Positions 22,553 to 50,347 of a DNA stretch of 64,000 nucleotides are shown piece by piece. The first letter of the stretch is position 1. Every line of letters begins with the position of its first letter. The translations under genes were made by a program, and so were the position numbers. The notes under the pieces are model-generated. The model did not search any database and was not told the DNA's origin. It worked only from the letters and a program-made list of their open reading frames with translations. Source of the stretch: Pedobacter faecalis (GTDB taxonomy: Bacteria; Bacteroidota; Bacteroidia; Sphingobacteriales; Sphingobacteriaceae); the NCBI RefSeq assembly GCF_030182585.1, contig NZ_JARXOW010000003.1, forward strand, positions 1 to 64,000. The letters run 5' to 3'.

Positions 22553-22614
22553 CAAAACTACATCCCTACTACACGCGCGTGAGGTTTAGCGGTTTACGTG
22601 GGTCGGATAGTAAA
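22553..22614 (-). promoter_or_regulatory. Phage late promoter 1 (lysis)
   Basis: On the minus strand, TTTAC-N12-GTAAA (593-614) is followed after exactly 32 bp by TAGTTTTG (553-560), a TAnnTTTG -7 box. A GCGC-rich segment lies between them. The endolysin ATG is 17 bp downstream of the box. Three other late operons show the same layout and spacing. Confidence 0.75.
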
Positions 22615-22669
22615 TAATTACTACTTAAGTGGTATTTACAATGCGACAGGCACGCTCGACCTTTGAAAT

Positions 22670-22888
22670 ATGAAAAAGACACTCATTATCATGATATTAG
22701 CTACCGGACTTTTTGCCTGCAAGAAAGATTGCCCTGTACCGGAGGCACCAGAATGCCCAACGTTCATTTTGCCAAATGAAGTAAGATCACTGGAAACTGG
22801 AAAACCCGAATGGATTGGCCGGGCACCGGTTTACGATACAAACGGGTCGCTATTGTATGTAGGGTATATTTATCGAGAGAAGTGTTAG
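22670..22888 (+). CDS. Small phage-encoded lipoprotein
   Basis: This 72-residue protein has a lipobox (ATGLFAC, Cys17) and a short cysteine-containing mature part (KKDCPVPEAPECP). It reads against the phage late genes from the space beside late promoter 1. Small lipoproteins in such positions can act in superinfection exclusion by blocking receptors, but nothing here proves it. Confidence 0.7.
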   Translation: MKKTLIIMILATGLFACKKDCPVPEAPECPTFILPNEVRSLETGKPEWIGRAPVYDTNGSLLYVGYIYREKC

Positions 22889-22898
22889 GCGCGCAACC

Positions 22899-25460
22899 CT
22901 ACGGATTCAGCGTGCACCTAACAAGTATTCCGTTTAACCACTCCAACGTGTAATAATCAGACCCTCCAACACGCACACCGTCTAGGGTAATTGATACGCC
23001 TGTCCGCTCGCCTTCGCCTACTTTGATACTTGACCCGGACAACACGACATTGCCGCCCACACTCAGTGTCCCCGTAGTTTCAATCCCTTCTTTAGTCATT
23101 TTAGACACCTGCGTCATGTCGGGAGTAGACGCCTGTACATGTCCAGTCGTTTCAAAGCCTTTCCGCCCCATCGAACTGAAGCCCGCTGCATCATCGGGCG
23201 TGATGCCTACTGATACGCCAGGACCGACTGCAGCGTAGAAATAAGTCATCACCCCGCCGACAAGTTTTTGGTATAAGAAGTTACGGGGTTTGGGAAGAAT
23301 AGGTATAGTGGTGCTTGTTACGTTGTTAGTTTCAATCGCACTGTCATCATCAATAAGTAACAGTTCCTGCTCGGTGGCACTGATCAGCTTGATATTATTT
23401 TCAGATTCCAATATCTGCACCCTCTTGCCAGTTGCATTGGTCCGCAGGTTCTTTACGATCAGGTTTATGAACTCAGCGCCGGTAGCTATCACCTGCCCCC
23501 TTATGGTGAGCTGCCCGTCATTTGTAACGCCCCAGTCCATACCGCTTAACAGATCACCAATATTGAATCGGTCATTATCCAGGTCTATGTATGTCTGACC
23601 GCTTGCTGATTCAATACGTCCGGTGCTTAGGGTCCCTGCAACTGCTGATGTGCGGCCTCGGAGACTTACAAACTCGCGCTGGCCGGCAAAGATGCTGGAT
23701 ATGATGCCATACGGGAAATGATAATAATCCGGATCGTCCTCAACGCCTATTTTGTCAAGGCTAACGATAACGTCCGCCAGCTGGCTATTCCGGTAGGCTT
23801 TAATATATACGTAGTATGGTTGATTGGCTTCCAAAGCCTCTGTAATCCCCGTAACCGTCCAAATCCCCCCATTATCTGTATACTGTTCATGAACTATTTG
23901 CCCGTCAGTAGCGACAAACTCATCCACTTCAAGCGTACTCGACACACTGGTCTGGTATGATCCGCCGTCAAGAGTGATGAGCAGCATTTCAGCCCGTAGC
24001 GTATTGAGTAGGCTTGTCAGTTCGTTGGTTGTACGCCAATTGAGACGCGCGCGGTTGATGTCGCCGATCTTGTTCAGGTTAAGCGCCTTGCGTGTCGATG
24101 CTACTGAGTTGGCCTGACGAACAATCGGCGAGCCTTTAACGGCTACATTGGATAGCTTCAGGTTGGTATACTTGTACTCATCGTGCAAATCCTGATCAAA
24201 GCCGACCGCCCGTATCTGGCCGTCAAGCAATACGTCATGATCTTTAATGTGATAGTAGTTCCCAAGCTGCAGGGCAATGGAATGGTTATCAAAGAATACG
24301 TGATCGGTAGGTGTTTTATACGTACATTTTGGGATCGACTCCTCCTGGAAGTATTCGGTACCGCGTTCGAGCAGACGCGCTTCGGCGGCTGTCACGTATG
24401 CAGTAGGCATTTGAATATCGAACAGGCTGAAGGTGTCACCAACAGCCGCATGCAGATCCTCAGACGGAAGTTCGAACGCTTTCTCCATCTCATTCTTGTT
24501 GAACTTGATCGTGCGTGTTGTGTGGTTGTAGCCCCCCTTAGCAATCTCAAAAACGTATCCTGCTAACTGGCCAGTCAGGAAAGTAATCTTGGCTGACAAG
24601 TCGCCGTACAGGTGTGCGTTAATGTCAAAGTCAATGCCTGTGTCGGTTATGGTGTACATATCAGAAGTAGCGGTGACTGTACCCACATATTCGGGGCGTA
24701 TGTCGTCGAACGTAACGGATTCCTCAATCTCATCCGGACCGTATTTCGGCCCCTGAATGTAAGTGCCTGACGGGATGGTTAAGCGCTTACGGCCGCCCCG
24801 GTAGTTCGCAGGGATGTTCTGCTCGGATCCGTAAACATTAAGCCTGCTGAACACATCACCGCTGGCATTGGTTCGTTCCAGACCGCCGGCGATACCTTTC
24901 CTGTATTCGAATGTGTACTCAGCCGCTTGGCCACGCCGTTTAAGGGATATAACCTTGTTATCCACCCACCATTCCGTCTCAAACGCCTCGGCTAGCTGAG
25001 CAAGCGCCTGCAGGATATTCTCTCCATTAAATGCCAATAGCTTAAAACCGGTATCTGCCTCAACCTCTCCCTTACTCCACCCTTCACTTATGGCATTTGC
25101 GTTGGCAATGGCAAGGTCAAGAAAGTCTTCAAGGGTTCCGTTAAGCTCAAACTGTTCCTCGGTCAGTTCATTCTCATAGTTGTACTGCTTATACTTCCAT
25201 TTGGCTAGGCTGTAGTACTGCGCCTGAAACTCGAGGTTATAGGTGTAGTCGGTGGTTGACGCCTTAGTTACATCCGCCCATCTATTTAGCGTGTACGTCT
25301 CCCCCCAAACCGTCACATAGTCGCCATGCTGGAAGTGAACCGGGTTTGGCGTCCGAACCTGCATCGAGACGATGTTCTTAACCATGACCTCACGCTCGCG
25401 CTGGCCTGTCGGGCGGCATATTAGTATAGGGTGGCCGTTACGGCAGATAGTGTATTGCAT
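22899..25460 (-). CDS. Tail tip/hub protein
   Basis: This 853-residue protein follows the tail fibre-like gene in transcription order. The N-terminal 380 residues look like a tail-hub module (NPVHFQHGDYVTVWGETYT, YNLEFQAQYYSLAKW). The rest is rich in beta segments with GDLLSGMDWGVTNDGQL-type repeats usual in central fibres of Bacteroidota siphophages. It probably forms the tail tip and contacts the receptor. The family assignment is by position and composition. Confidence 0.7.
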   Translation of the reverse strand: MQYTICRNGHPILICRPTGQREREVMVKNIVSMQVRTPNPVHFQHGDYVTVWGETYTLNRWADVTKASTTDYTYNLEFQAQYYSLAKWKYKQYNYENELTEEQFELNGTLEDFLDLAIANANAISEGWSKGEVEADTGFKLLAFNGENILQALAQLAEAFETEWWVDNKVISLKRRGQAAEYTFEYRKGIAGGLERTNASGDVFSRLNVYGSEQNIPANYRGGRKRLTIPSGTYIQGPKYGPDEIEESVTFDDIRPEYVGTVTATSDMYTITDTGIDFDINAHLYGDLSAKITFLTGQLAGYVFEIAKGGYNHTTRTIKFNKNEMEKAFELPSEDLHAAVGDTFSLFDIQMPTAYVTAAEARLLERGTEYFQEESIPKCTYKTPTDHVFFDNHSIALQLGNYYHIKDHDVLLDGQIRAVGFDQDLHDEYKYTNLKLSNVAVKGSPIVRQANSVASTRKALNLNKIGDINRARLNWRTTNELTSLLNTLRAEMLLITLDGGSYQTSVSSTLEVDEFVATDGQIVHEQYTDNGGIWTVTGITEALEANQPYYVYIKAYRNSQLADVIVSLDKIGVEDDPDYYHFPYGIISSIFAGQREFVSLRGRTSAVAGTLSTGRIESASGQTYIDLDNDRFNIGDLLSGMDWGVTNDGQLTIRGQVIATGAEFINLIVKNLRTNATGKRVQILESENNIKLISATEQELLLIDDDSAIETNNVTSTTIPILPKPRNFLYQKLVGGVMTYFYAAVGPGVSVGITPDDAAGFSSMGRKGFETTGHVQASTPDMTQVSKMTKEGIETTGTLSVGGNVVLSGSSIKVGEGERTGVSITLDGVRVGGSDYYTLEWLNGILVRCTLNP

Positions 25461-25475
25461 ATGCCGATATATTAT

Positions 25476-25664
25476 TTAAATATGTGGGTAATTCCGTCTA
25501 TATTTTACCAGAAAAATATAGTACGAAACACAGACTACTAATAGAAATAGGAAGTACAATTGACCAAATTTGAAAATTATTCCGGCCAATGGAGGGGTGA
25601 CATAGCATAATATGGATAACGTTTCTTTTATTGTAAATATGAGGAGTTTGATTATTCGCTTCAT
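25476..25664 (-). CDS. Small two-helix membrane protein
   Basis: This 62-residue protein has two hydrophobic segments (about 5-32 and 33-53) and a basic end. It lies between the two big tail genes with 15-bp gaps on either side, so the space is used tightly. No family is recognised. It might be a superinfection-immunity peptide. Confidence 0.5.
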   Translation of the reverse strand: MKRIIKLLIFTIKETLSILCYVTPPLAGIIFKFGQLYFLFLLVVCVSYYIFLVKYRRNYPHI

Positions 25665-25679
25665 TTCTTGGTAATTTGA

Positions 25680-28386: not shown

Positions 28387-28839
28387 TTAATCCCCATTTC
28401 CATCAAGTATGATCTCCGTCTCCGGCTGAAACTCCTCGTAGCACTGGATCAGCTTCAAATCAAACATCACCCCATGACCGCTTGCCGTAGTATACCAACT
28501 CATACCGCTAGCGCCTGTATACCTCACGCGGTACGTCTTGTTAGTGCTATACACGTACAGCGATTTGCTGCCAGTGCCCGACACCAACGCCCCAAGCAAG
28601 GCGTCCTTACTCGCCACCACATCAGCCACCGTCGCCCCGGTTATCGCCACACTCAACACGACCTCCCTGTCCTGAAATACCGCAGGCCTGTTGAGGTAAG
28701 TCCGCCCCGAAACTTCCGGGTAATCCGAATACTCAATTGGCTTAACAAGGTCAGGCTCTTCAAACATCTTCAGCCCGTCACGTATAACGGCTGCATATGC
28801 TGTGAAAAAATCCTGACCTTCTAATGTTGCTTGCTGCAT
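28387..28839 (-). CDS. Distal tail-like protein
   Basis: I use the ATG at 28839 (protein starts MQQATLEGQDFF, 150 residues). The longer frame to 28893 needs a TTG start and would lie inside late promoter 2. The protein has beta-rich sequence with VVLSVAITGATVADVVASKDAL and YVYSTNKTYRVRYTG, fitting a distal tail or tail-associated protein upstream of the hub. It is the first gene of the tail-tip operon. Confidence 0.6.
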   Translation of the reverse strand: MQQATLEGQDFFTAYAAVIRDGLKMFEEPDLVKPIEYSDYPEVSGRTYLNRPAVFQDREVVLSVAITGATVADVVASKDALLGALVSGTGSKSLYVYSTNKTYRVRYTGASGMSWYTTASGHGVMFDLKLIQCYEEFQPETEIILDGNGD

Positions 28840-28877: not shown

Positions 28878-28939
28878 CAAATTTACCTATCAACCATGCG
28901 CTGATCGGAGGTTCGAGTTTACGTGCGGCATTTGGTAAA
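28878..28939 (-). promoter_or_regulatory. Phage late promoter 2 (tail tip)
   Basis: TTTAC-N12-GTAAA (918-939) lies exactly 32 bp from TAAATTTG (878-885 on the minus strand). The intervening segment contains GCGC. It implies a transcript starting near 28,873, which decides the ATG at 28839 for the first gene. Confidence 0.75.
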
Positions 28940-29031: not shown

Positions 29032-29631
29032 ATGAATGCTTTCACAGAGTGGTGGGCTAACTACGATACTACTGCCTTTTTTGGCGACATAGTAACCGGT
29101 CTTGTAGCCTCTTTAATTTTCCTTTTTGGACTATATTTATTAAAGCCCGGTATAAGAATTTGCGATAAGATCGCATTCCAGTATGATAGTAATGCAGAAC
29201 TAGAAAAGAGGCGTCACTATTCCTTTAAGATTGTAAACCGGTCTCTTTTCTTCAAGGTATACGATATCCAAATAAGAGCGTGGACTTCAAAGGTGGAACC
29301 ATCCATTAATGCTGACGATGTTTCCTTCAAGTCAATAGCTTTGGTTAAAGACTACCAGTGGGTTCTTTACCGAATGTTTATAGGCCACTTGTTTCAGGAT
29401 ATCAGGCTAGGCGAAAAACGCCTTGAAAAAAGAACTGACTATGCTGCTCAGTTTTCAACCTATGACGATTTAGCAAAATTAATAGATGCGGGACATTACG
29501 TAACCGTAGAGGTAATTGCAAAGCACTCCTTGACGGGCTTCACCAGAGTAAGAGCTAAGAGATACAAACATAAGAACGATTTAACCGAAGGCACGTTCCA
29601 CAGTGGTAACTCATGCAAAATCAAGGTATAA
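29032..29631 (+). CDS. Membrane-anchored cargo protein
   Basis: This 199-residue protein has one membrane helix (about 18-40) and a soluble basic domain (45-199) with no family I recognise. It lies against the direction of the tail genes, with its own promoter and a terminator. That makes it a moron (lysogenic cargo gene). Membrane morons often alter phage adsorption or DNA entry; here this is only inference. Confidence 0.7.
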   Translation: MNAFTEWWANYDTTAFFGDIVTGLVASLIFLFGLYLLKPGIRICDKIAFQYDSNAELEKRRHYSFKIVNRSLFFKVYDIQIRAWTSKVEPSINADDVSFKSIALVKDYQWVLYRMFIGHLFQDIRLGEKRLEKRTDYAAQFSTYDDLAKLIDAGHYVTVEVIAKHSLTGFTRVRAKRYKHKNDLTEGTFHSGNSCKIKV

Positions 29632-33399: not shown

Positions 33400-33402
33400 G
33401 GC

Positions 33403-36539: not shown

Positions 36540-36721
36540 TACTCGCTGTCTTTAGCAGTTTCTCCGTTTGATACCAGTCCTTTCTCGACAAGCTCAGCGA
36601 TACGCTCTTGCGTTAGATCGGATACGTCCTGACCGACCTCATAAGCGATATCCCAATTATCCTTGTCTCTAAATGGAGCGACTACCTTGTAGCCTGCTCC
36701 TTCGGTTTTTCCTTTAGCCAT
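36539..36721 (-). CDS. Small capsid-adjacent protein
   Basis: This 60-residue protein reads YKVVAPFRDKDNWDIAYEVG and ends acidic. Similar short proteins often follow the capsid gene in siphophages. It shares 1 bp with both neighbours. Role unknown. Confidence 0.6.
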   Translation of the reverse strand: MAKGKTEGAGYKVVAPFRDKDNWDIAYEVGQDVSDLTQERIAELVEKGLVSNGETAKDSE

Positions 36722-37815
36722 TACGATTGAACTGTTTTAGTGTCCAACAGATAGATTTCATCAACATTGTTGATTACCGGCAGGGCCAGTGCCTGTGAAG
36801 AAGTGTACTCCTTCAAAGGATCAACTTTGTGATACTTCGAAACCAGGATGAACTCGTCTGCAACCTCATAGGTAACTGCCTTGTTCTTGTGAACCATTTC
36901 AGCAAGTGTACCCCATGTAAGTGTACCAACCTCCTCTGTGGTAAGGAATACAACAGACCCCTCTTGCCAAGGCTTCACGTTTGTCTTAACGCCGTTACGC
37001 TCGGTGCGTACAGTTCTGTTGACGATAACAACCTTCCATCCGTACTCACTCAGGATAAATGCTTTCGCCTTTTCTGAATTTGGTGTAGGGATAATGGTGT
37101 TGCCGTCAATTGCCATGTCGAGGCTGAAGGCGTACCTTTGCTTAAACTCAGTTGTTTTGATCATGTTCGCGAACGCGTACTGGTCCATCATGACAGTTGA
37201 AATGGTATTGCCATCAGCGTCAGCCTTATCCTTCACCCTATTGAAGTCGGAGATCGGAGTTGCAGAAGCGGCAGTTGACCAAAGTACTGACACACCGAAC
37301 TTGTTTGCAGACTTGTAGCCAAAGTCAACACGGATACCTAACCCAACATTGGCAGTGTCCTGGATCAGCGTAACACCACTGGACAAGGCTTGCAAGAACA
37401 TAAGCTCCAACACCTCATACACACCGGTGATTGCTTTTGCAGTATCCTGGAACAACTTCTGAACGATGGTAGACTCCTGAGTCGCCGGGCTGTTAGCCAG
37501 GATATTCAGATCAGTCATGGTACGCTCGTTCAAGGCCAGTTTCATACCCAGTTTAGGGATATCACCGTCAGCCTTGCTAATCGAGTCGCGTTTTTTCAAC
37601 GGAAGCGGTGAATCCATTGCAACTACGTCAGCAGCTACATTTGATCCCTCAACATTGATTGAGTTCCACTTCAACGTTGGAGAATACTCCTTGCGAAGCA
37701 TTGTTTTGTGCAGATACGTCTGCGGCGCTTTTGTGCCGTTGATCTTTTCAACGACCTTCGCTACTAAGGGCTTGAAATACTTCGCTACCCAGGCGGTAAA
37801 TAATGATGGTTCCAT
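36721..37815 (-). CDS. Major capsid protein
   Basis: This 364-residue protein has the order and length of a HK97-fold capsid of the lambda gpE kind. The N-terminus has KMTLRKEYSPT-like text (actual: HKTMLRKEYSPTLKW), then a long central helix (TIVQKLFQDTAKAITGVYEV). It has no separate protease region. It lies 2 bp after the decoration-like gene. It should form the icosahedral shell. Confidence 0.8.
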   Translation of the reverse strand: MEPSLFTAWVAKYFKPLVAKVVEKINGTKAPQTYLHKTMLRKEYSPTLKWNSINVEGSNVAADVVAMDSPLPLKKRDSISKADGDIPKLGMKLALNERTMTDLNILANSPATQESTIVQKLFQDTAKAITGVYEVLELMFLQALSSGVTLIQDTANVGLGIRVDFGYKSANKFGVSVLWSTAASATPISDFNRVKDKADADGNTISTVMMDQYAFANMIKTTEFKQRYAFSLDMAIDGNTIIPTPNSEKAKAFILSEYGWKVVIVNRTVRTERNGVKTNVKPWQEGSVVFLTTEEVGTLTWGTLAEMVHKNKAVTYEVADEFILVSKYHKVDPLKEYTSSQALALPVINNVDEIYLLDTKTVQS

Positions 37816-38231: not shown

Positions 38232-38864
38232 TTATAAAATCGCATCTACGACGGCCTCAACTTCGGCGTCTGATGCCTTTCCTTTGCTGGCAGCACTTCC
38301 GCTACCCCCCGCCGGTCTGCCTCCGCCAAGCGTCTCGTTGGTTTCCTCCTGGATTGCGGCAGCGTGATCTTCTTTCATTGACTCCAGCACTTCATTGAAG
38401 TGAGCATCATCTCTAAAAGTGAATAAGTCAAACTTTTTCAGTTCACGCGCTTGGTACTCCTTAGAGGTTCCCTCCATCGACTTGATGAATTGCTCCCTGC
38501 GAGTGTTGCCGATTTTTTCCGTCTGTAAGGCTTGCAACCCCTGTCCTAAAGTCTCTACCGACTTCACGAGTGACTTTGCCCATTCGGGCACATCAGCATC
38601 ATTGGCAGGTTTTGTTTCCTCAGCCGGTTTTTCGGCAGGTTTATCTTCAGGCTTTGGCTTGTTGGCGTTAACCTGACGGTTAATCTCCGACTGCATGATA
38701 TCAGTCATTGGCTTCACCGCTTCGATTGCCGCTGTAATTTCCGCGTCTGTAGATTCTTCGGTGAGGTTCACGCTAATCACATCAGCAAGACCCTCCAATG
38801 CTTTTGGGCTGAAACCCTTGCTTGCAAACAAGGTCTTCAACATTGCAATAAGTTTTTGTTTCAT
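38232..38864 (-). CDS. Scaffold-like head protein
   Basis: I start at the ATG at 38864 (MKQKLIAMLKTLF), since the longer frame to 38972 overlaps late promoter 3. The 210-residue product is helical and acidic, with a proline/lysine/glutamate linker (KPKPEDKPAEKPAEETKP) and a glycine/serine-rich C-terminus (GGGRPAGGSGSAASKG). This is typical of head scaffolds placed just before capsid genes. It is the first gene of the head-tail operon. Confidence 0.65.
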   Translation of the reverse strand: MKQKLIAMLKTLFASKGFSPKALEGLADVISVNLTEESTDAEITAAIEAVKPMTDIMQSEINRQVNANKPKPEDKPAEKPAEETKPANDADVPEWAKSLVKSVETLGQGLQALQTEKIGNTRREQFIKSMEGTSKEYQARELKKFDLFTFRDDAHFNEVLESMKEDHAAAIQEETNETLGGGRPAGGSGSAASKGKASDAEVEAVVDAIL

Positions 38865-38918: not shown

Positions 38919-38980
38919 CGAAATTACCCCTATGCCCGCGCGTGCTAAAGTGAACGGATTTACTAAGCACACTTGGTAAA
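38919..38980 (-). promoter_or_regulatory. Phage late promoter 3 (head-tail)
   Basis: TTTAC-N12-GTAAA (959-980) lies exactly 32 bp from TAATTTCG (919-926 on the minus strand), one base off TAnnTTTG. GCGCG lies between. The scaffold ATG is 55 bp downstream of the box. Confidence 0.75.
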
Positions 38981-39015: not shown

Positions 39016-39300
39016 ATGATCCCCAACCACAGCATAACAGCGTCCTTCGGATCGGTAAACGAGACGGTAGACTTCCTTCAGGGAACTGGAGGCGGTCAGC
39101 CTAATATTCACATTTACATGAAAGGCTACTTTTTAGGCAATGTGATTTATACAGATAACGGCTGGCGCGTTCATTGGGGGCCGGTGACGGATAAGTCTGT
39201 TTTTCGGGAGTACACACAGTATTTTGCAGCCTCCGACGCCGATGCTGTTTTGGACCGGCTTGTTGAGGCTGGTATTGTTGAACCGGGGGATATTTTATAA
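39016..39300 (+). CDS. Small cargo protein of SRAP cassette
   Basis: This 94-residue soluble protein has a short beta region (IHIYMKGYFLGNVIYTD) and a C-terminal helix (DADAVLDRLVEAGI). It is not recognised. Its layout resembles the 71-residue and 72-residue proteins at 40024 and 50374. It begins the plus-strand cassette beside late promoter 3. Confidence 0.6.
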   Translation: MIPNHSITASFGSVNETVDFLQGTGGGQPNIHIYMKGYFLGNVIYTDNGWRVHWGPVTDKSVFREYTQYFAASDADAVLDRLVEAGIVEPGDIL

Positions 39301-39335
39301 CTTCAAACTTTAACACCACAGACTAAACGCATATT

Positions 39336-40043
39336 ATGTGCTACTACACTTCTGTAAAGACTACCGGCCGCCAACTTGCCGCTGACTTACATGCGCCGTT
39401 CGAACGTGCAGATCAGTTTACCGGGATTGTCCGGGCAAACGGGTTTTCACATCCTGAGCTGCCTGTACTGTCAGTAGATAACGGGCGGTCGATAAATATG
39501 TACAACTGGGGCCTGATCCCTCATTGGGTTAAGGATTGGGAGTCTGCCGTGAAGCTAAGAAGGCAGACCCTCAACTGCATTAGTGAAGAGGTGTTTGAAA
39601 AGCCATCATTCAGGGATAGCATAATGAAGCGCCGGTGCATCATACCTGTAACTGGATTTTTTGAGTGGAAGCACGTTGGAAAAAGTAAGTTTCCGTACTT
39701 CATCCACCCAAAGGAACAGCCGTATTTCTATCTGATGTGTTTGTACAGTTTTTGGACTGACCCTGCCACCCGAGACGTATTGCCAACATTCACTATTCTC
39801 ACAGGTGCCGCAAACGTCCTTATGGCCGATATCCACAACACCAAAAAGCGCCAGCCTTTAATGATTGATAAGCGCAACATTGACGCCTGGATGTCTCTTG
39901 ACCTGCCTAAATCCGGCGTTATTGAACTGATGCAACCTTGCGACGATAGAGAAATGGCGGCGTATACAATTGCGGGGGGAACTGACAACTCCAACGATGA
40001 TCACATACTTGAACAGGTAAACTATGGATCCCTTCATAATTAA
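39336..40043 (+). CDS. SRAP/HMCES-family abasic-site protein
   Basis: This 235-residue protein has the SRAP start Met-Cys (MCYY); after Met removal Cys2 is the nucleophile that crosslinks abasic sites in single-stranded DNA. Other family text: WGLIPHWVKDW, KRRCIIPVTGFFEW (with the active-site Glu) and IHNTKKRQPLMI (with the family His). The usual NARAE motif reads NCISE, so one DNA-contact arginine is absent. It sits in a phage cargo cassette and overlaps the next gene by 20 bp. The protein would shield damaged phage or host DNA; that use is inference. Confidence 0.88.
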   Translation: MCYYTSVKTTGRQLAADLHAPFERADQFTGIVRANGFSHPELPVLSVDNGRSINMYNWGLIPHWVKDWESAVKLRRQTLNCISEEVFEKPSFRDSIMKRRCIIPVTGFFEWKHVGKSKFPYFIHPKEQPYFYLMCLYSFWTDPATRDVLPTFTILTGAANVLMADIHNTKKRQPLMIDKRNIDAWMSLDLPKSGVIELMQPCDDREMAAYTIAGGTDNSNDDHILEQVNYGSLHN

Positions 40044-40239
40044 AGTAAACGGAACTGTGCTCACTGTCTATCCCCAAGAAGATGGATCATTCAATATTTT
40101 TTGGAACGGGGAACAGTATGCGAACATATTCGCTGATATCGACGGTGACACAATGGAACCTATATGGTCAACAGGTGACCTGGTATCGCTGGAAGAGGTT
40201 CAAGCAATTGGTGAGGCTATTGAGCGTTTTGAGAAGTAA
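40024..40239 (+). CDS. Small cargo protein, beta plus C-terminal helix
   Basis: This 71-residue protein reads FIIKVNGTVLTVYPQEDG and ends with a helix (SLEEVQAIGEAIERF). It resembles small proteins present in many copies in Sphingobacteriaceae genomes, and the one at 50374. Function is unknown. It overlaps the SRAP gene by 20 bp, so translation is coupled. Confidence 0.65.
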   Translation: MDPFIIKVNGTVLTVYPQEDGSFNIFWNGEQYANIFADIDGDTMEPIWSTGDLVSLEEVQAIGEAIERFEK

Positions 40240-40432
40240 TTATCTCCAACGCCCGATCTAACCTGTATTTAACAGCCTCCTCAACACGGGCACCTGCAGA
40301 TCTGCTCTTTAGGATATCGATTGACTTAGCTATAAACTCACTGGTATCCGGCACAAATACACCGCTGTCAAGCTGTAAAGTTTCTGGTAGATCAATGCCG
40401 TGAAAGGCTGCTTCGTATTCTTCTGCTGTCAT
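40217..40432 (-). CDS. Hypothetical small phage protein
   Basis: This 71-residue soluble protein (TAEEYEAAFHGIDLPETL at the start) is convergent with the cargo gene and overlaps it by 23 bp at the 3' end. It has normal codon use. No family is recognised. Confidence 0.5.
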   Translation of the reverse strand: MTAEEYEAAFHGIDLPETLQLDSGVFVPDTSEFIAKSIDILKSRSAGARVEEAVKYRLDRALEIITSQNAQ

Positions 40433-40509
40433 GGCCGCGAAGGTAAGTAAAACTTTGATGCCGGGCCAGGTGTTTTATTGGTCCGGCTCGCATATCAGCC
40501 ACCATAGCT

Positions 40510-40845
40510 ATGGCAATAAAAAATATGAAGATTGATAAGGCTGCAATCGTTCAGCCCGACTTTGAATTACCAACGGCGGCAGAAGTATTACATCCCGTAC
40601 TATTTAAAGAAGGTGATCAGTATTGCTGCCTGCTTGGCCCTGATCCACAAGCCGGTGTGTTCGGGTGTGGAACCTCAGCTCAGGAAGCCGTTAACGATTG
40701 GGAGCAGGAGCTGAAAGACAGGGTGAACAATGCCGGCGCATCGGATAAGCTGACGAGTCAGATTATTGAGGAGCTTAACGCCGAGGCCACACGTAGAATG
40801 GTGTGGGAGTTTGAAAATCAGTTTAGGCCGGTTAAGAGGAAGTAG
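40510..40845 (+). CDS. Hypothetical cargo protein, HicB-like layout
   Basis: This 111-residue protein has LFKEGDQYCCLLGPDPQAG, then GCGTSAQEAVNDWEQEL, a layout resembling the partial RNase-H fold of HicB-like proteins, then a C-terminal helix. No HicA toxin partner is seen. It is the last plus-strand gene of this block and its end overlaps a minus-strand gene by 14 bp. Confidence 0.55.
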   Translation: MAIKNMKIDKAAIVQPDFELPTAAEVLHPVLFKEGDQYCCLLGPDPQAGVFGCGTSAQEAVNDWEQELKDRVNNAGASDKLTSQIIEELNAEATRRMVWEFENQFRPVKRK

Positions 40846-41343: not shown

Positions 41344-41805
41344 TCATATCTTCTCTGCTTTAAGTATTAAAGGGTTGCTTACTTTGGATTGGGCTTCTTC
41401 GTATTGAGCCTCCATATTTGTGTACAGCTCGTCGCTCATAGTGCCGTAGTAAATGGGATGCTGATACGGATTCTCCAACAATATACCGTTAGCTTTTAGA
41501 AAGTCAACAAAAGCAGTCTTTCCGAACTTATAAGCCGTCCTATTATTAGGATGAGGCAACTCAACCCACATACCATATCCATCTTTAAATCTGAACAGTG
41601 GTTTTACTTGCTCCTCAGTCAGCTCCAACGCCCTGCCCAATACGGTATACTTGTAGCCGGAAGGGAGCGGAATGTAATCCGGCATGCGTATATCGTCTTC
41701 CATGCAATCGAACGAAAGCCTGTCCGGTAATATCTCAAATCCGGTGGCGTTAGTAGGAACCTCTACAACCAGCAGATCGGCTATGCCTGTGTTAAGTAGT
41801 TTCAT
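41344..41805 (-). CDS. Hypothetical phage accessory protein
   Basis: I start at the ATG at 41805 (MKLLNTGIADLLVVEVP, 153 residues), which overlaps the regulator stop by 4 bp (ATGA); a longer frame would run 54 bp into that gene. The protein contains YIPLPSGYKYTVLGRALELTEEQ and NRTAYKFGKTAFVDFL. It looks like a common small phage protein with no known function, cotranscribed with the regulator. Confidence 0.6.
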   Translation of the reverse strand: MKLLNTGIADLLVVEVPTNATGFEILPDRLSFDCMEDDIRMPDYIPLPSGYKYTVLGRALELTEEQVKPLFRFKDGYGMWVELPHPNNRTAYKFGKTAFVDFLKANGILLENPYQHPIYYGTMSDELYTNMEAQYEEAQSKVSNPLILKAEKI

Positions 41806-42251
41806 TGTTCGGCCTCCATATTTAAAATAGCATAATGCACACTTCCGCATTCGGGGCACCTCTGACGCTTTTTGATAACTATTAGGTCTGAATATTTGAA
41901 CTCATGGCAACAATCCATACATTTCAATGTCACTTTCGCCTTATCTATTCTAGTCCTTGATGTAGTTTCAGGGGTTGTTGTGCTCAAATGAGCAGGGGTA
42001 TAAGGTGGCACCAGGTCGTTAATGGAAATTGACAGTAGTCCGGACAGGAAACTAACCACATGTAACGGTAGCCTTTGCTTTCCACTCTCAATGTTGACTA
42101 TTGACACCCGGCTTATATTAATCAAAGAAGCAAGTTGATCCTGAGTATAACCTTTGTTCCTTCTCGCCTCGTAAATGAGCCCACCGACCTTTTCATAAAA
42201 TTTGGTCTGATGCTCCTTTTCTTGATAAAATTCGTTCTTCTTTTCCATCAC
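41802..42251 (-). CDS. XRE-family regulator with zinc ribbon
   Basis: This 149-residue protein has an HTH_XRE domain (residues about 23-80, YEARRNKGYTQDQLASLINI and NIESGKQRLPLHV) and a C-terminal Cys-x2-Cys...Cys-x2-Cys ribbon (LKCMDCCHEF, QRCPECGS). It is a likely phage repressor or timing regulator, but its operators are not known. It may read one of the dyads in this prophage. Confidence 0.75.
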   Translation of the reverse strand: MMEKKNEFYQEKEHQTKFYEKVGGLIYEARRNKGYTQDQLASLINISRVSIVNIESGKQRLPLHVVSFLSGLLSISINDLVPPYTPAHLSTTTPETTSRTRIDKAKVTLKCMDCCHEFKYSDLIVIKKRQRCPECGSVHYAILNMEAEQ

Positions 42252-43405: not shown

Positions 43406-43644
43406 TGTTTAGGTGTTGAGCCATATTTGTCGTACCACCCTCCTCTATTATCGTTTATATCTGGAATACCGTCGGGAACCATTTCGAACAATGCTTCACC
43501 TTCATCTGAAAAAAGCCCTTGCCTCATGCCGCAATGTCCAAATGCACAACATCTTCCTTGCTCGTCCGCAAACTCGTTAGTAGTCCACTTATCTTCAGGT
43601 ATCGCTTCAAACTTCTCAATGAAGTAGTCTAATGTGTAGTTCAT
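43402..43644 (-). CDS. Hypothetical phage protein
   Basis: This 80-residue protein has a cysteine-rich middle (GRCCAFGHCGMRQGLF) and may bind metal. It overlaps the next gene by 4 bp on both ends. I cannot name a family. Confidence 0.55.
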   Translation of the reverse strand: MNYTLDYFIEKFEAIPEDKWTTNEFADEQGRCCAFGHCGMRQGLFSDEGEALFEMVPDGIPDINDNRGGWYDKYGSTPKQ

Positions 43645-44030
43645 GACTTATCGTTTAGTGTTAGTTCCTGGCCTGTCAATGATTGGTGAAGGTTCTGAAG
43701 CTGGTGTACGTATTGGATGTCCCCTCCTAGATGATATAAATGGCAATAACCTGTTTGATGTGTATAAACTTTGAAGTAGTTGAAAGACCAAATTTTTATC
43801 CATGGATCTTCGCCCTTTGTATAGGTAAACCCAAACCTTACCAGCCATTCTTGGGTGAGAGGGATGCCAAACAAGTTTACCGCTTGAACGATTGAAACGT
43901 GTGCCGAGAGGGTGTCGTTCCTGGTATATTTACATCTCGCGCCGTCTTCCCTCACCTGTACCACTTCCATTTCGGAGCCGTCTTCAGTCTGTACCAGGTT
44001 GCCTAGTCGGAGTTCTCTTGGGTTTATCAT
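43641..44030 (-). CDS. Common Bacteroidota phage protein of unknown role
   Basis: This 129-residue protein reads NPRELRLGNLVQTEDG at the start, GIPLTQEWLVRFGF in the middle and YVHQLQNLHQSLTGQELTL at the end. This pattern recurs in many Bacteroidota phages and mobile elements. Function unknown. It overlaps both neighbours by 4 bp. Confidence 0.65.
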   Translation of the reverse strand: MINPRELRLGNLVQTEDGSEMEVVQVREDGARCKYTRNDTLSAHVSIVQAVNLFGIPLTQEWLVRFGFTYTKGEDPWIKIWSFNYFKVYTHQTGYCHLYHLGGDIQYVHQLQNLHQSLTGQELTLNDKS

Positions 44031-44961: not shown

Positions 44962-44965
44962 CAGC

Positions 44966-45178: not shown

Positions 45179-45201
45179 TTCTATATTTTCCTTTTATAGA
45201 G

Positions 45202-45561: not shown

Positions 45562-45743
45562 GGCTTTTGTTCCTTTCTAGCCGGTAGCGTGTCGGACTTT
45601 AGGCTCTCTGAGTACTCACGTAACCACTCTGCTTCAGCCGCTATATAGTCGTCCTGGACTTTCTGATATGCAGCGCCTGCGACTACGTATAGCAGTGCGT
45701 ACAGGGCGATCATGGCGAATCCAAATATTATTGCGCAGATCAT
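45558..45743 (-). CDS. Small membrane protein
   Basis: This 61-residue protein has one strong membrane helix (about 2-26) and a charged cytoplasmic-like tail. It overlaps its neighbours by 4 bp on both sides. No family recognised. Confidence 0.6.
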   Translation of the reverse strand: MICAIIFGFAMIALYALLYVVAGAAYQKVQDDYIAAEAEWLREYSESLKSDTLPARKEQKP

Positions 45744-46324
45744 ACGTCCTGCCTCCTCTCAGCGTCAGCGTCGAATCCAGCCTCCTCCAGCCACAATTTC
45801 AGCAAGGCAATCGTCTTTTCGATATCCTGCTTAAACTGGCCTTTCTTTAAAGCCCTGTCAATGCGTTTAACGGCATCAAACTGGTATGAGTTCCATCCAC
45901 GATCTTGTGCGACCTTGTACAGGCTGCCTTTGCTGTTGTCGTAGTATTCTGGAAGCTTGACGCCTCTGATCACTTCGTTTTCTGTGCGGTCTACAGCCCT
46001 CTCCAGCAATGGCGCTTTATAGTTGCCACCACCTGAAGTTGATCGTGGCATAGATTTTTCAAATTCCCTCAGCAGGTTAGCATAAGGTTCAGCATCTTCC
46101 ATCGTCTTTGCTGCCTTGTATTGTTCCCAAACGGCGCCATAGGTGTACGGGATGAAGTGTTGGTTGATGTTATTCAGATCCCAGCCTCCGCATGAGCCGT
46201 TTTCACACGTAATGGCGGTATCACTAATGGCATGGTAAACTTGTCCTATGGCAAAAACATCTTTGCCAAATCCGGTTGTATCAACACACACGAACTGATC
46301 GCCTTTTTTGATTGATGTTATCAT
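45740..46324 (-). CDS. Phage protein with DUF3310-like end
   Basis: This 194-residue protein has a C-terminal part (YQFDAVKRIDRALKKG, IEKTIALLKLWLEEAG) that resembles the DUF3310 phage family. The N-terminal SH3-like start (IKKGDQFVCVDTTG) could be a separate module. The DUF3310 link is weak. It overlaps both neighbours by 4 bp. Confidence 0.55.
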   Translation of the reverse strand: MITSIKKGDQFVCVDTTGFGKDVFAIGQVYHAISDTAITCENGSCGGWDLNNINQHFIPYTYGAVWEQYKAAKTMEDAEPYANLLREFEKSMPRSTSGGGNYKAPLLERAVDRTENEVIRGVKLPEYYDNSKGSLYKVAQDRGWNSYQFDAVKRIDRALKKGQFKQDIEKTIALLKLWLEEAGFDADAERRQDV

Positions 46325-46629
46325 AAATCCACATTCACTTTAATTGTTGCACGATCTATATTTATCTGCCTGCCCTTATACAGGCCTTGCTTTTTACGCA
46401 GCTTCTTGACTTTCCTGGGCAGCCTTTTAAGCCTTATAGACACACCGTATTCAGGCTGGCCAAGCCAGGTTCCTATGCCGTAATTCAAGTAGCCTTCCAT
46501 GTTGATGAGTACTGGTTTTTGAAGGTCAATAACAGGCATCTCCGTTAGTTGGGCAACTACCGCTCTCTCTTCCTCTGAGATGTGGCGCATTACAACCATG
46601 CTAATGCCGTGTATACTGTATGTGCTCAC
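46321..46629 (-). CDS. Hypothetical basic phage protein
   Basis: This 102-residue protein ends with a basic, nucleic-acid-binding-like region (RLKRLPRKVKKLRKKQGLYK). The start has ERAVVAQLTEMPVIDL. No family recognised; overlap of 4 bp with the next gene. Confidence 0.55.
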   Translation of the reverse strand: MSTYSIHGISMVVMRHISEEERAVVAQLTEMPVIDLQKPVLINMEGYLNYGIGTWLGQPEYGVSIRLKRLPRKVKKLRKKQGLYKGRQINIDRATIKVNVDL

Positions 46630-46632
46630 GAT

Positions 46633-46833
46633 CTACTGCTCCCCATTCTTATCTGTCAAATCCCAATCCTTAGCGTTATAGGAGGCACCCGTCACCTTCG
46701 CTCCGACCCTTGCCAGTTCCTCCTGATCAATTAGCCCCATGTGAGGCTTGTACTTGCTTGCCAGTGTAATGGCATCCTGCAAGTCTTCTTTCAATGTGCG
46801 TACTTCGCGCTGTAATTGTTGTAATTGGTTCAT
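46633..46833 (-). CDS. Small coiled-coil protein
   Basis: I use the ATG at 46833, giving NQLQQLQREVRTLKEDL at the N-terminus, a coiled coil (66 residues). The longer frame to 46890 overlaps the upstream gene. Function unknown. Confidence 0.5.
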   Translation of the reverse strand: MNQLQQLQREVRTLKEDLQDAITLASKYKPHMGLIDQEELARVGAKVTGASYNAKDWDLTDKNGEQ

Positions 46834-46837
46834 AATT

Positions 46838-47128
46838 TTAAACTGCGTATCTGGTTTGTAATTGCGCATATAAGGCCTCATATACATCATTTTTCTGATC
46901 TTCGGTTAATCCTAAGGGCACCTGGATATGGTTGGAACATTTAAACCCCTTCCCGTTAGCCTTGACTACTAAAAATATGTGGCCTGTTTTGGCAATTCTT
47001 TTATTGTGCACCCTCGTTTCTTCTGTGGTATAATTACGCAGGCATCCTTTTTTAGTTAATTTGTCAGCCGTGGATTCTTTGTCCTGTTGCTGTAGTGTCT
47101 TTTCTTGCATATTGTATATATAGCCCAT
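46838..47128 (-). CDS. Hypothetical phage protein
   Basis: This 96-residue protein (start may be the internal Met7 at 47110) has a basic, helical start and GHIFLVVKANGKGFKCSNH in the middle. Soluble. No family. It lies 4 bp from the next gene in the chain. Confidence 0.5.
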   Translation of the reverse strand: MGYIYNMQEKTLQQQDKESTADKLTKKGCLRNYTTEETRVHNKRIAKTGHIFLVVKANGKGFKCSNHIQVPLGLTEDQKNDVYEALYAQLQTRYAV

Positions 47129-47178
47129 CCGGAGCCGGTCTGTGCTGCTATAGCATACCCATTACGGGTGATTTGTAG

Positions 47179-47403
47179 CTAATGCAGCGTGTTAATGTAT
47201 TCTTTAGTTATCCATGCCATTACTGCGACTGCTATCCACAGCACTACGTGCACCCACCAATTGCGGTCTGGCTTGTGGGGCGTTGGTCTGCGTGGCGCAG
47301 GTATAAACTGGCCGGTGTTATCGTCAAGTATTGGCGCTGTCAGGTATTCGTGAAGCAGCCAGAGCCAGGCAGCGAACCACAGGGTTGCGAGTAGGGTTAG
47401 CAT
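47179..47403 (-). CDS. Small two-helix membrane protein
   Basis: This 74-residue protein has two membrane helices (about 2-23 and 50-67) with a proline/arginine-rich linker. It follows a lipoprotein gene by 3 bp. Such a pair could act in membrane exclusion or lysis control; no direct evidence. Confidence 0.55.
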   Translation of the reverse strand: MLTLLATLWFAAWLWLLHEYLTAPILDDNTGQFIPAPRRPTPHKPDRNWWVHVVLWIAVAVMAWITKEYINTLH

Positions 47404-47406
47404 GGG

Positions 47407-47661
47407 TTACCTAGATTTAATAATATAATCGCCACTAACTTCGATCAGGCTATCTCCTTTGAAGTAGAAGACGCCATCAGACTCCTTGCTTTCATTGACA
47501 ATGCCTCTGAATGAGTCGCGAAAAACAACTTCTCCTCCACTGTACATTTCAACTTCGTAATTTCTTTCGGTTGTCTGGAAGCCTCTTTCCATTCGTTGAC
47601 AACCTCTCTGACAGCTGGACAACAGCCCAACAGCCAAAATCATAACCATTAATCTTTTCAT
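47407..47661 (-). CDS. Phage-encoded lipoprotein
   Basis: I start at the ATG at 47661 (KRLMVMILAVGLLSSCQRGC). The lipobox is L-S-S-C with Cys17. The 84-residue product has a short beta-rich mature domain (NYEVEMYSGGEVVFRD). It lies just after the RNA-locus terminator on the minus strand. Function unknown; may affect infection by other phages. Confidence 0.65.
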   Translation of the reverse strand: MKRLMVMILAVGLLSSCQRGCQRMERGFQTTERNYEVEMYSGGEVVFRDSFRGIVNESKESDGVFYFKGDSLIEVSGDYIIKSR

Positions 47662-47715
47662 ATTACATACGCCTCTCGGCAATTAGTTACAATCCACGCC
47701 GCCCAAAATGAGCCG

Positions 47716-47751
47716 GCAATAAAACAAGCGTGAGGTAACCACTCCTCACGC
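47716..47751 (-). terminator. Terminator of tRNA/RNA transcript
   Basis: GCGTGAGG (728-735) and CCTCACGC (744-751) form a perfect 8-bp stem with an 8-nt loop, followed on the minus strand by TTGTTTTATT. It ends the transcript that begins near 48,323. Confidence 0.85.
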
Positions 47752-47760
47752 TATTCAACT

Positions 47761-47948
47761 CAACTATTCCCGGGCGTTTCGCCCTTACCAAACATAACCT
47801 CCGCATCATGCGGATAACAAGTGCCCAAAGGGCTTTCACAATAGACCCCATGCCGGGGATGCTTTGCCTGCACGTCGCGGATACCCGCTGGCAGGGCTTG
47901 AATGGTGGGGCTATGCGATACCGTCCCTAGGTATCTTGATGCATAGCC
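47761..47948 (-). ncRNA. Candidate structured RNA downstream of phage tRNAs
   Basis: Six local hairpins are packed in 188 bp. The largest has GGCTATGC/GCATAGCC (909-916 with 941-948) stacked on GATACC/GGTATC (917-922 with 930-935), 14 bp with a 5-nt bulge and 7-nt loop. The others are GGGCG/CGCCC (772-784), CCGCA/TGCGG (801-813), GCCC/GGGC (823-833), CCCC/GGGG (846-858) and TGCC/GGCA plus GCGG/CCGC (865-893). It lies between the tRNA-like gene and a terminator, within one transcript. An open frame crosses it but has no credible start. No known RNA family is matched; the setting recalls large phage RNAs found by tRNA genes. Confidence 0.6.
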
Positions 47949-47957
47949 TTTTTCCTG

Positions 47958-48029
47958 TAGAGAATGCCGGGATCGAACCGGCGACCTGATGGATAAAACC
48001 ACCGCTCTAACCTACTGAGCTAATTCTCC
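47958..48029 (-). tRNA. Irregular tRNA-like gene
   Basis: Acceptor GGAGAAT/ATTCTCT (G-U at 1-72), D stem GCTC/GAGC and T arm GCCGG-TTCGATC-CCGGC are canonical. Between D and T arms only 21 nt are present, 2 fewer than normal. The best anticodon stem (GGTGG/CCATC) leaves a 6-nt loop TTTTAT; the other fold has loop TTTATCC (TAT) with a wrong base at position 37 and a 3-nt variable loop. It may be a degenerate tRNA or a tRNA mimic. No amino acid is assigned. Confidence 0.65.
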
Positions 48030-48155
48030 GCGCCCGTCTTTCCGGGCTGTCAACCATTGCGTATGTCATGCATCTTTCAGCATGGTGCCTATTTGCAAGT
48101 TTTTTCTACTTAATAGATCAACTCCGTTCGACGCTTTAAACGTTGGCTTTCTGCG

Positions 48156-48228
48156 TTGCGGGGACACGACTTGAACGTGCGACCTCTTGGTTATGAGCCA
48201 AGCGAGCTACCAACTGCTCCACCCCACA
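48156..48228 (-). tRNA. tRNA with anticodon CAT (Met or lysidine-Ile)
   Basis: The cloverleaf is complete: acceptor TGTGGGG/CCCCGCA, D stem GAGC/GCTC, anticodon stem CTTGG/CCAAG with loop CTCATAA, variable AGGTC, T arm GCACG-TTCAAGT-CGTGT, discriminator A. The acceptor begins with U1-A72, which is unusual for elongator tRNA-Met. The CAT anticodon can serve Met or, after lysidine modification, Ile (AUA). Transcribed from the promoter at 48329. Confidence 0.88.
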
Positions 48229-48328
48229 ATGTTTGCTTGCCACCCGAATGATGTACAAAAAAGAATGATGCTATCTCTAACATCATTCCCTTCTTTGTTA
48301 AGCACATACTCACTATCCGGTGACAAGA

Positions 48329-48364
48329 CAAATATAGCAATATACTTTTTATTCACAAATGAAT
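48329..48364 (-). promoter_or_regulatory. Phage promoter family B, copy A (tRNA locus)
   Basis: On the minus strand, TATATTTG (329-336) is preceded by a TTTG exactly 19 bp upstream. The + strand core atactttttatt is at 342-353, followed by the ATTCA-N4-TGAAT dyad (351-364). It drives tRNAs and the structured RNA, down to the terminator at 47716. Confidence 0.75.
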
Positions 48365-48385
48365 ATTAAAAATTATTTTTAGCTG

Positions 48386-48685
48386 CTATCCGGCCCTACG
48401 AGCAGCCACCTTGTAACCATGCGACCGCTGAATCTTATTCGTTTTGTGCCGTTTGCTCTTCCCATTCCCGTAACGCAAGCCATACTCTTTTGGGGACAGC
48501 CCCGGCATACCGTGTGTAACCAAATCTAACCCTCCAACTTCTCGCATCACCTTATACTTACTGACTGGCCGGGCGGCAGTTGCTTTAGTCTCGTGCAAGG
48601 TGCCCGCTGTGCGATGTGCCTGTGCGGCGTGTGATCCGGCCAGACCTGCCATCAGGGCTGCAGCCATTAAAAAATGTTTTCTCAT
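48386..48685 (-). CDS. Small exported basic protein
   Basis: This 99-residue protein has a signal peptide (LMAAALMAGLAGSHAAQA) and a basic C-terminus (GNGKSKRHKTNKIQRSHG). It lies between portal and tRNA locus, behind the portal gene. I do not recognise it; being exported it may act on the envelope. Confidence 0.6.
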   Translation of the reverse strand: MRKHFLMAAALMAGLAGSHAAQAHRTAGTLHETKATAARPVSKYKVMREVGGLDLVTHGMPGLSPKEYGLRYGNGKSKRHKTNKIQRSHGYKVAARRAG

Positions 48686-48749
48686 ATATAATTTCTCTAA
48701 GCCTTTCGGCGGTTAATAACCCGCATTTCCGCACGGGCAGGCGGTTTAG

Positions 48750-50243
48750 TTATTCTTGTACAGGCGGCGCGTCGGTCTGGATTTGCGTTGGTTTGAGGGC
48801 TGCTGCGCGTTTGGTGGCTGCCTCAAGTTCAACCTCTATCTGCTTCAGCTCCTCCTCGTCACTATCAGTCAGGTTTAGCATGGCTACGGCTTTCTTGCGG
48901 CTCAGCAGCCCGGCCCCTACCAGTTTCACAATGTTCTCGTAATTCTCGGTGTCATTTGACGGCATGAATATCGAAAACTTAGGTGTCACCTCGAGTTCCA
49001 CGTCCTGCATGCCGCCAATTACCCCCATAATGGTAAGTAGCAGGTTATACCGGCGCTGTACTGACATGCCCCATCCGCCCATTTGCTCATTCATGGCTTT
49101 AAGTGTTGCTGGAAGAAAGAAAAGCTTCATTGTCACGCCTGGTACATTGGCGCCTAACGAGGTTGCGTCCTGAAAGCTGATCTGAGGCGTAAACGTCTCA
49201 TCATAGATCATCTTAATCAGGTTTTTCCTTTCATCAATGATCGATTCAGGAGCACCGGTAGCTTCAACAAACTTCATGTCGGCACCATCGTTAAGCTCGA
49301 ACACCTTTCCAGTCTCGCCTCTGGCTATAAAGCCCTTTACCTCACCTTTAACGGCAAGTATCGGAGATCCTGTGGCATCATTCTGGTCTGAATGGTTTGA
49401 ATTTAGTATTTCAAGCCTGTCGATCTTATCTTGAACATCAGCCCACTCAACATCATTCTGCTCATGAACGATAAACTGAGGCTTAGTGAACTTGTGTGGT
49501 TCAAAGGTTTCGAGCGCCCATCCGCCCTGCTTCTGCGTGTAGACGTAATAACCGTTATCGACGTACAGGTCAAACTTGCTGACCTCCTTACCTTCATCGT
49601 CTCTGATCTTGTACCCACGGCCAAGGGCGATCATTTTACCAAACTTATTTCTGATCGGGTACAGATCGTCTCCGGTTTCAGTGGACATGATAAGCAGGCG
49701 CATCTTCTTAACCTTCGACGTACCCGGCATAAGATCGCCCCAGAAAGACTTCTCTGCATCTTCCGAATACCAGACCTCAGCACATATCTTGTATGTCTTC
49801 TTGAGGCGCAAAATCTCCTTATCCAGATAATCGATCTTGTTATCCTTAAGCGTCTTTAAGAGCATCTTGTATTTGCGCTCCTGCTTATCGTCCATTTTGT
49901 TAGGCGCAACTGGTTCAACAGGCGTACCGGCAGCGATTTGGACTGCCCACTGAACGATCATCTTTTGGGCGCTGGAAGTGATACGGGCGACCTTCTCCCA
50001 ATCTTTGGTCATTTTATCCGTACCGGCGCCTGGCTGTCCATCTTCAATTTTTACCGGCTGACCGTTGGAATCGTAGACAGGTTTCCATACCTCCCTGTCT
50101 TTGCGGGAAGACTTTTGCATCACCGCATGGTTTTCAGGATAGTACTGCTTCCAATCATCATCCTCCTCAGGCCTCGAGGCCTGAACTACGCTAATGAGTT
50201 TTGACGGATCGTTTGTAAGTTCCTTAAGTTTCTCTATCTCCAT
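48750..50243 (-). CDS. Portal protein
   Basis: I start at the ATG at 50243 (MEIEKLKELTNDPSKL, 497 residues), because the longer frame to 50288 enters late promoter 4. The text fits SPP1/gp6-type portals: QKMIVQWAVQIAAGTPV near residue 95, a long wing and crown, and ATSLGANVPGVTMKL near the clip. Twelve copies form the DNA gate at the capsid vertex. The C-terminal acidic coiled coil (about 440-475) is usual. Confidence 0.85.
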   Translation of the reverse strand: MEIEKLKELTNDPSKLISVVQASRPEEDDDWKQYYPENHAVMQKSSRKDREVWKPVYDSNGQPVKIEDGQPGAGTDKMTKDWEKVARITSSAQKMIVQWAVQIAAGTPVEPVAPNKMDDKQERKYKMLLKTLKDNKIDYLDKEILRLKKTYKICAEVWYSEDAEKSFWGDLMPGTSKVKKMRLLIMSTETGDDLYPIRNKFGKMIALGRGYKIRDDEGKEVSKFDLYVDNGYYVYTQKQGGWALETFEPHKFTKPQFIVHEQNDVEWADVQDKIDRLEILNSNHSDQNDATGSPILAVKGEVKGFIARGETGKVFELNDGADMKFVEATGAPESIIDERKNLIKMIYDETFTPQISFQDATSLGANVPGVTMKLFFLPATLKAMNEQMGGWGMSVQRRYNLLLTIMGVIGGMQDVELEVTPKFSIFMPSNDTENYENIVKLVGAGLLSRKKAVAMLNLTDSDEEELKQIEVELEAATKRAAALKPTQIQTDAPPVQE

Positions 50244-50285
50244 GCTGCAAACACCGATCCTTGCTTGGGGCAACACGGTGTACAA

Positions 50286-50347
50286 CAAAAATAGCCAGCC
50301 TTACGCGCGAGGGTGCGTTTGTGGGTTTACTAAATGAGTTTGGTAAA
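50286..50347 (-). promoter_or_regulatory. Phage late promoter 4 (portal)
   Basis: TTTAC-N12-GTAAA (326-347) is exactly 32 bp from TATTTTTG (286-293 on the minus strand). CGCGCG lies between. The portal ATG is 43 bp downstream of the box. The same layout occurs at 22553, 28878 and 38919. Confidence 0.78.

Follow-up and report, generated by a model that had tools for sequence, protein, structure and literature searches.

How are the late genes of a Bacteroidota prophage switched on together? This question is raised by the window analyzed here, a stretch of 64,000 nucleotides from Pedobacter faecalis (contig NZ_JARXOW010000003.1, positions 1 to 64,000), which contains most of a 52-kb prophage in a host genome of 3.63 Mb. 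Four elements, each composed of the inverted repeat TTTAC-N12-GTAAA and a downstream box resembling TAnnTTTG, lie before the lysis, tail, head, and portal genes (Table 1). The first-pass annotation regarded them as activator-dependent late promoters of one phage. This interpretation is supported by a layout kept in relatives, enrichment on the late strand, and a single spacing. The four sites are very probably the late promoters of the prophage, switched on by the product of the gene at 54084-54560, referred to below as the candidate activator. Handles beginning with G and L denote genomes and loci, respectively.

Layout of the four elements and its conservation

Four 62-bp minus-strand elements were present at the annotated coordinates, with N12 and N32 exact in all of them. 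The complete pattern TTTAC-N12-GTAAA-N32-TAnnTTTG was found without mismatch in three sites; the box of the head site, TAATTTCG, has one mismatch. Such an identical layout had been considered unlikely by chance, and the pattern (N30 to N34) occurred 0 times in 100 dinucleotide-preserving shuffles. Allowing up to three mismatches at N32 gave one extra match in the window (44593) versus 1.07 expected. The window contains four exact TTTAC-N12-GTAAA dyads, all at the promoter sites, and none was detected in the early region. The whole genome contains 13 exact dyads, these four and nine elsewhere, and the reversed control pattern occurs nine times. Numerous random matches in the host genome, which the annotation had named as one refuting outcome, were not seen: the full layout (N28 to N36) was found one extra time, at N31 (C2:411140).

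Portal homologues were detected by tblastn in 34 of the 399 genomes of the host family, including that of the window. Among the 27 loci read upstream of the portal gene, TATTTTTG was present in seven (our own included) and in a degenerate form in one (L122); no such element was seen in the 19 more distant loci. Portal-based scans of viral-contig and genome-contig collections gave no relatives. The proposed pattern search of related phages (60 kb around five intact relatives, up to two mismatches) identified 12 late-strand sites at N32 or N33. Five further matches had other spacings (N30, N31, N34 twice, and N35), and the late strand carried two of the five. Training a weight matrix on 14 sites, those of the window included, added head promoters in G213 (33.2), G267 (37.7), and G389 (22.0) and a portal promoter in G389 (33.4); the head site of G389 is marginal because Markov controls reach 21.5. 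Weak N32 matches inside tape-measure genes were not counted. Wherever homologues allow a call, the gene behind the site is a portal, head, tape-measure or tail-tip, or lysis gene, and three sites of the relatives were without a gene call (G321 137854, G321 117648, and G213 40735).

The strongest single number for the layout was obtained from the spacing test. In seven phages, two of which had been found by the pattern itself, the late strand carried 18 matches at N32, four at N33, and zero to two at each other spacing, and the opposite strand carried zero to three at every spacing. These comparisons support a layout conserved in related phages at the portal, head, tail, and lysis genes and enriched on the late strand at one spacing.

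We compiled 32 sites (27 at N32 and five at N33) to describe the signal. One site of G389 (4882919), the sites of G255, G201, G388, G203, G088, G020, G013, G403, and L194, the matches inside tape-measure genes, and the other operator classes described below were left out. The information content of the dyad was 21.4 bits, and the spacer was nearly uninformative except for C at −44 (0.82 bits) and GG at −14/−13 (1.26 and 1.40 bits); all these figures are inflated, as the sites were chosen by pattern or matrix. The −7 box was TAnnTT(T/C)G with invariant T, A, T, T, and G and with T or C as the seventh base, a regularity likewise inflated by selection with this consensus. The compiled sites conform to the −7 element TAnnTTTG (TAHHTTTG) of Bacteroidota sigma-ABfr. 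In PMC6847099, this element is numbered from T−12 to G−5, with the start of transcription 4-5 nt further on. By that numbering the dyad spans −66 to −45 with its centre at −55.5, and the G at −10 of the window lysis site departs from the revised H rule of the same paper.

The −33 TTTG element is missing, as the annotation had stated: no position from −36 to −30 exceeded 0.32 bits in the 32 sites. Most head sites carry CTTTA within this interval, and the head promoters (L142, L148, L138, L150, and the L145/L144 region) share CTTTA[CT]C near −35, which may be a third half-site or the remnant of a −33 element. The GCGC patch, which the annotation had noted between dyad and box, did not hold up as a signal; each of the four window sites has GCGC or CGCG, compared with only eight of the 32 compiled sites. 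It is GG at −14/−13, not GCGC, that belongs to the promoter signal. At the portal promoters of Mucilaginibacter-type phages (L108, L110, L111, L195, and L197), an ATACCC/GGGTAT-type hairpin repeat followed by TTTTTG overlaps the −7 box.

A candidate activator and its putative operators

In each of the five intact relatives, an orthologue of the candidate activator was located upstream of the terminase small subunit gene. The two genes are adjacent in three of these relatives, and a single gene separates them in G267 and G389; the small subunits themselves belong to different types. A profile of these five proteins and that of the window detected the regulator in 16 of the 399 family genomes, 13 of which had a dyad-box site. 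The sites of G388, G203, and G088 are mismatch-free, and those of G013 and G020 have one and two mismatches, respectively. A pattern scan of IMG/VR gave 97 stretches, of which 80 records were listed and searched for the regulator. It was present in two of these 80 records, both among the six with two or more sites, and a separate profile search found it in a third of those six (G449, E 2.5e-7). In four loci (L178, L186, L187, and L190 of G203, G088, G020, and G013), a distant regulator occurs together with a single N32 site, which precedes a small gene of the GNxxGRxxG type. An open reading frame (ORF) of tape-measure size (1322-1429 amino acids, aa) follows downstream in three of the four, and a gene resembling that of the terminase small subunit is present in G088.

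Another phage or host protein may bind the dyads, the candidate activator merely travelling with the late module. The prophage encodes further DNA-binding candidates, namely an XRE protein with a zinc ribbon (41802-42251), a DnaA_C-like protein (61742-62092), a LuxR-type protein (C3:68591-69160), an HTH_17 protein (C3:67580-67873), and an HTH_3 protein (C3:71239-71682), and in single-sequence searches the last two occurred in three of 15 elements, the same as the candidate activator. We therefore compared iterated profiles of single window proteins, each searched against the same 15 elements. The profile of the candidate activator grew from three to 12 to all 15 elements, with one ORF in each, versus 0, 1, 2, 5, and 4 for the five proteins in the above order and 0 for the zinc-ribbon and S24 proteins. 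The best other window protein, of unknown function (43641-44030), reached seven, and structural genes reached at most 12 in a single-sequence comparison. These profiles favour the candidate activator. The presence of two operator classes in elements of a single host genus (G000 and G263 versus G323 and G209) makes a host factor unlikely. Overall, we consider binding by another protein improbable.

Two other kinds of candidate were sought and rejected. An Ogr/Delta homologue was sought with PF04606, which gave 0 matches in the host genome with a positive E. coli control, and a screen for zinc-cysteine ORFs yielded 41802-42251 and 61214-61531, whose homologues were present in none of the 15 elements. 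The former (minus strand) has an XRE-type helix-turn-helix with a zinc-ribbon-like C-terminal part.

Searches of Pfam, PHROGs, and PDB with the candidate activator sequence gave nothing convincing and no family name; weak cullin-3 and TPR rows were judged to be chance. Bac_DnaA_C was not among the Pfam families at E <= 1 for the six regulator members. hhalign aligned the conserved region of the regulator with the helix-turn-helix of the prophage DnaA_C protein with a probability of 6.6. The latter is a small early-region protein (minus strand) with a clear Bac_DnaA_C domain (Pfam E 9.2e-16). DnaA domain IV was the best structural match of both regulator models, with Spo0A second for one, and a DnaA domain IV-like fold is predicted for the candidate activator. 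Foldseek returned no PDB match at E <= 0.001 and three phage models from BFVD (probability 1.00, E 0.02-0.2). Among INPHARED phages, the window protein and the G213 orthologue had no match, and the G550 orthologue matched BS-TP2 and MT835597. The homologue in BS-TP2, gp42 (PQ571275.1 26684-27121), is annotated as 'Bro-N domain-containing protein'.

The operators of regulator-bearing phages fall into several classes. G323 and G209, found by the protein profile, each contain exactly three TTGACAAT-N7-ATTGTCAA dyads, none of them outside the prophage. A TAnnTTnG box lies 32 bp from every one of the six, and the genes that follow are the head gene (PHROG 5824, like its counterpart in the window), an ORF of tape-measure size (1535/1556 aa), and an endolysin. 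Their hosts belong to the same genus as that of the window, yet the operator differs; a host binder would not explain this pattern. In G550, from another family of the same class, three ACGACAAT-N6-ATTGTCGT dyads, unique in the genome, are located 42 bp from TACCTTTG, TACTTTTA, and GAACTTTG, and an imperfect fourth is 41 bp from TAGTTTTG. The regulator of Bacteroides phage BS-TP2 is 81% identical to that of G550, and this phage has three dyads of the G550 type (one with one mismatch) at N42 from TACCTTTG, GAAATTTA, and GAACTTTG, preceding genes leading into terminase, head genes, and a tail gene. Because BS-TP2 shares regulator and dyads, the family of G550 is probably Bacteroidaceae. In this family, 13 of 301 genomes carry the regulator, and eight of the twelve other than G550 were read. 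In four of the eight, an unsupervised search revealed repeated dyads that lie 41-42 bp from a box: G1016, G1058, and G993 (TTTCAC/GTGAAA) and G891 (TTTACCTAT/ATAGGTAAA). No repeated dyad family was recognized in MT835597, which has a distant regulator, or in Porphyromonas phage005b.

Both strands of 24 elements were also searched blind. Seven distinct pairs emerged in seven elements; all were on the late strand, and in each the dyad centre was 43-44 or 53-54 bp away from the box. The other 17 elements gave no pair. The two spacings differ by 10 bp, one turn of B-DNA, which is what a need for the protein to face the polymerase would predict. Across the sequences compared, the rule stands that the operator varies between phages and the distance does not, save that it is one helical turn longer in some. 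Residue N110 is present in the YTTA class except G449, and S occupies this position in the TTGAC class and in G013; we regard it only as a lead to a specificity determinant.

Several observations weigh against the assignment. G055, G143, and G034 carry the regulator, and no dyad-box site was found in them. Conversely, G432 (a 16.5-kb fragment), G403, and G410 have two or more sites and no detected regulator. In the scan that gave the sites of G388, G203, G088, G013, and G020, the opposite strand gave four matches with one or two mismatches, which weakens two sites. Both structure models were built from eight sequences, several N42 boxes depart from the consensus, and G1055, G940, G985, and G1090 gave no dyad-box pair in the unsupervised search.

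A palindrome upstream of a promoter equally fits an operator at which a lysogeny repressor silences the late promoters, and the prophage encodes an S24-type repressor-like protein (C3:69190-69930). However, the dyad keeps one fixed spacing and does not reach into the core promoter, the compiled sites lack a −33 signal, exact dyads are absent from the early region, the S24 protein has no homologue in the 15 elements, and the shift by one helical turn fits polymerase contact better; a repressor is very unlikely. The least plausible alternative, that the late operons are preceded by terminator or antitermination sites working at the RNA level, draws on the hairpin at the portal sites of several Mucilaginibacter-type phages, but no such hairpin was seen by eye in the four window sites, no terminator test having been run, and the conserved part, TAnnTT[TC]G preceded by GG, is a promoter signature.

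With the candidate as activator, we infer the following mechanism. The protein would be made at the end of early transcription. As a dimer with its centre near −55, it would use its predicted DnaA domain IV-like helix-turn-helix to bind the 22-bp dyad, whose half-site is about YTTAYYA. On that helix face, the dimer may help the host sigma-ABfr polymerase onto a promoter with a good −7 box preceded by GG and no −33 element. The portal, head, tail, and lysis genes would thereby be turned on together. We also lean, with less assurance, towards the view that such late activators form a widespread family in Bacteroidota phages and that this family arose from the DNA-binding domain of DnaA. Its operator would drift freely at a distance fixed to whole helix turns, with the centre near −55.5 in the host family of the window and near −65.5 in a second family, probably Bacteroidaceae.

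Late operons and prophage setting

Table 1 Features of the prophage and its late promoters.
Feature	Position	Strand	Remarks
attL	20800-20820	+	3' end of tRNA-Arg 20745-20817; 21-bp direct repeat
Lysozyme-domain protein	22000-22536	-	First gene of promoter 1; PHROG 1259 ('baseplate hub subunit and tail lysozyme'), C-terminal part of the profile
Late promoter 1 (lysis)	22553-22614	-	Dyad 22593-22614; -7 box TAGTTTTG 22553-22560
Tail protein	28387-28839	-	First gene of promoter 2; PHROG 6305
Late promoter 2 (tail)	28878-28939	-	Dyad 28918-28939; -7 box TAAATTTG 28878-28885
Major head protein	36721-37815	-	One gene apart from 38232-38864
Head-operon first gene	38232-38864	-	Promoter 3; PHROG 5824 (unknown function)
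Late promoter 3 (head)	38919-38980	-	Dyad 38959-38980; -7 box TAATTTCG 38919-38926
Portal protein	48750-50243	-	First gene of promoter 4; PHROG 64
Late promoter 4 (portal)	50286-50347	-	Dyad 50326-50347; -7 box TATTTTTG 50286-50293
Terminase small subunit	53586-54080	-	PHROG 606; directly after candidate activator
Candidate late-gene activator	54084-54560	-	158 aa; directly before terminase small subunit; predicted DnaA domain IV-like fold
Integrase	C3:71669-72964		Near attR
attR	C3:73069-73089		Outside the window; second copy of 21-bp direct repeat

The minus strand of the prophage carries the terminase, portal, head, tail, and lysis genes. The annotation assigned a late operon to each site, which stood for lysis, tail, and portal; its head-tail operon is better described as a head module, consisting of two genes of unknown function followed by the major head protein gene. 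The ATG starts that it proposed at 28839, 38864, and 50243 are preferable to the mechanical ORF starts at 28893 (TTG), 38972 (GTG), and 50288 (TTG) because the latter sit inside the promoter elements, and 50243 agrees with the portal starts of the nearest relatives. Assuming a transcription start 5-6 nt beyond the −7 box, the predicted leaders are about 11-12 nt for promoter 1 (to ATG 22536), 33-34 nt for promoter 2, 49-50 nt for promoter 3, and 37-38 nt for promoter 4.

Plus-strand ORFs (29032-29631, 39016-40845, and 50618-52126) abut promoters 2, 3, and 4 upstream, as if inserted between late modules. Their position would explain why the late operons behind these promoters need separate starts. 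Within these stretches, the 39336-40043 protein belongs to PHROG 1599, which we take to be SRAP-like, and the 51131-52126 protein is DUF6414. The portal gene is followed on its own strand by a tRNA-Met (CAT) gene (48155-48228) and, at 47957-48029, by a tRNA-like element whose anticodon has 2 bases.

Comparison with known systems

Literature searches of an open-access library showed neither a late-gene activator nor a late-promoter rule for phages of Bacteroidota, and the present analysis gives candidates for both. It also assigns a candidate role to a gene without known function, revises gene starts, and makes the late operons readable from sequence. The natural operator classes and the two helical positions constitute a set for probing how an activator contacts the unusual Bacteroidota polymerase. 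If our interpretation is true, phage late transcription joins the uses of the DnaA DNA-binding fold.

The candidate activator resembles DnaA domain IV and the Spo0A DNA-binding domain in its predicted fold. It differs from DnaA in standing alone without an AAA+ domain, in a palindromic site instead of a single DnaA box, and in showing no significant sequence similarity. ArpU, RinA, and LmaC of Gram-positive phages are late regulators encoded by the last early gene, beside the terminase small subunit gene. The candidate activator is likened to them by this position, and the phylum and promoters are different.

The dyad of the late promoters of coliphage P2 is centred near −55, as is that of the window. 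According to PMC3931495 and PMC5694545, these promoters contain the inverted repeat TGT-N12-ACA and are activated by the zinc-finger protein Ogr. Four late operons are switched on together by a small phage protein, P2 Ogr or Delta of satellite P4 (PMC3931495), and the window shares with this system both the four operons and an N12 inverted repeat. The half-site, the polymerase (sigma-ABfr with its −7 box in the window), and the protein differ, and the Ogr zinc motif CX2CX22CX4C is not in the candidate activator. Phage Mu C and Mor are described in PMC4461284 as activators bound upstream of the −35 site at several late promoters. The candidate activator would be similar to them as a phage activator bound upstream of late promoters, although the promoter type differs; a general Pfam scan of the candidate activator gave no significant match, no search aimed at the Mor domain having been made. 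By analogy, the candidate activator would work like Ogr but is not a member of the Ogr family.
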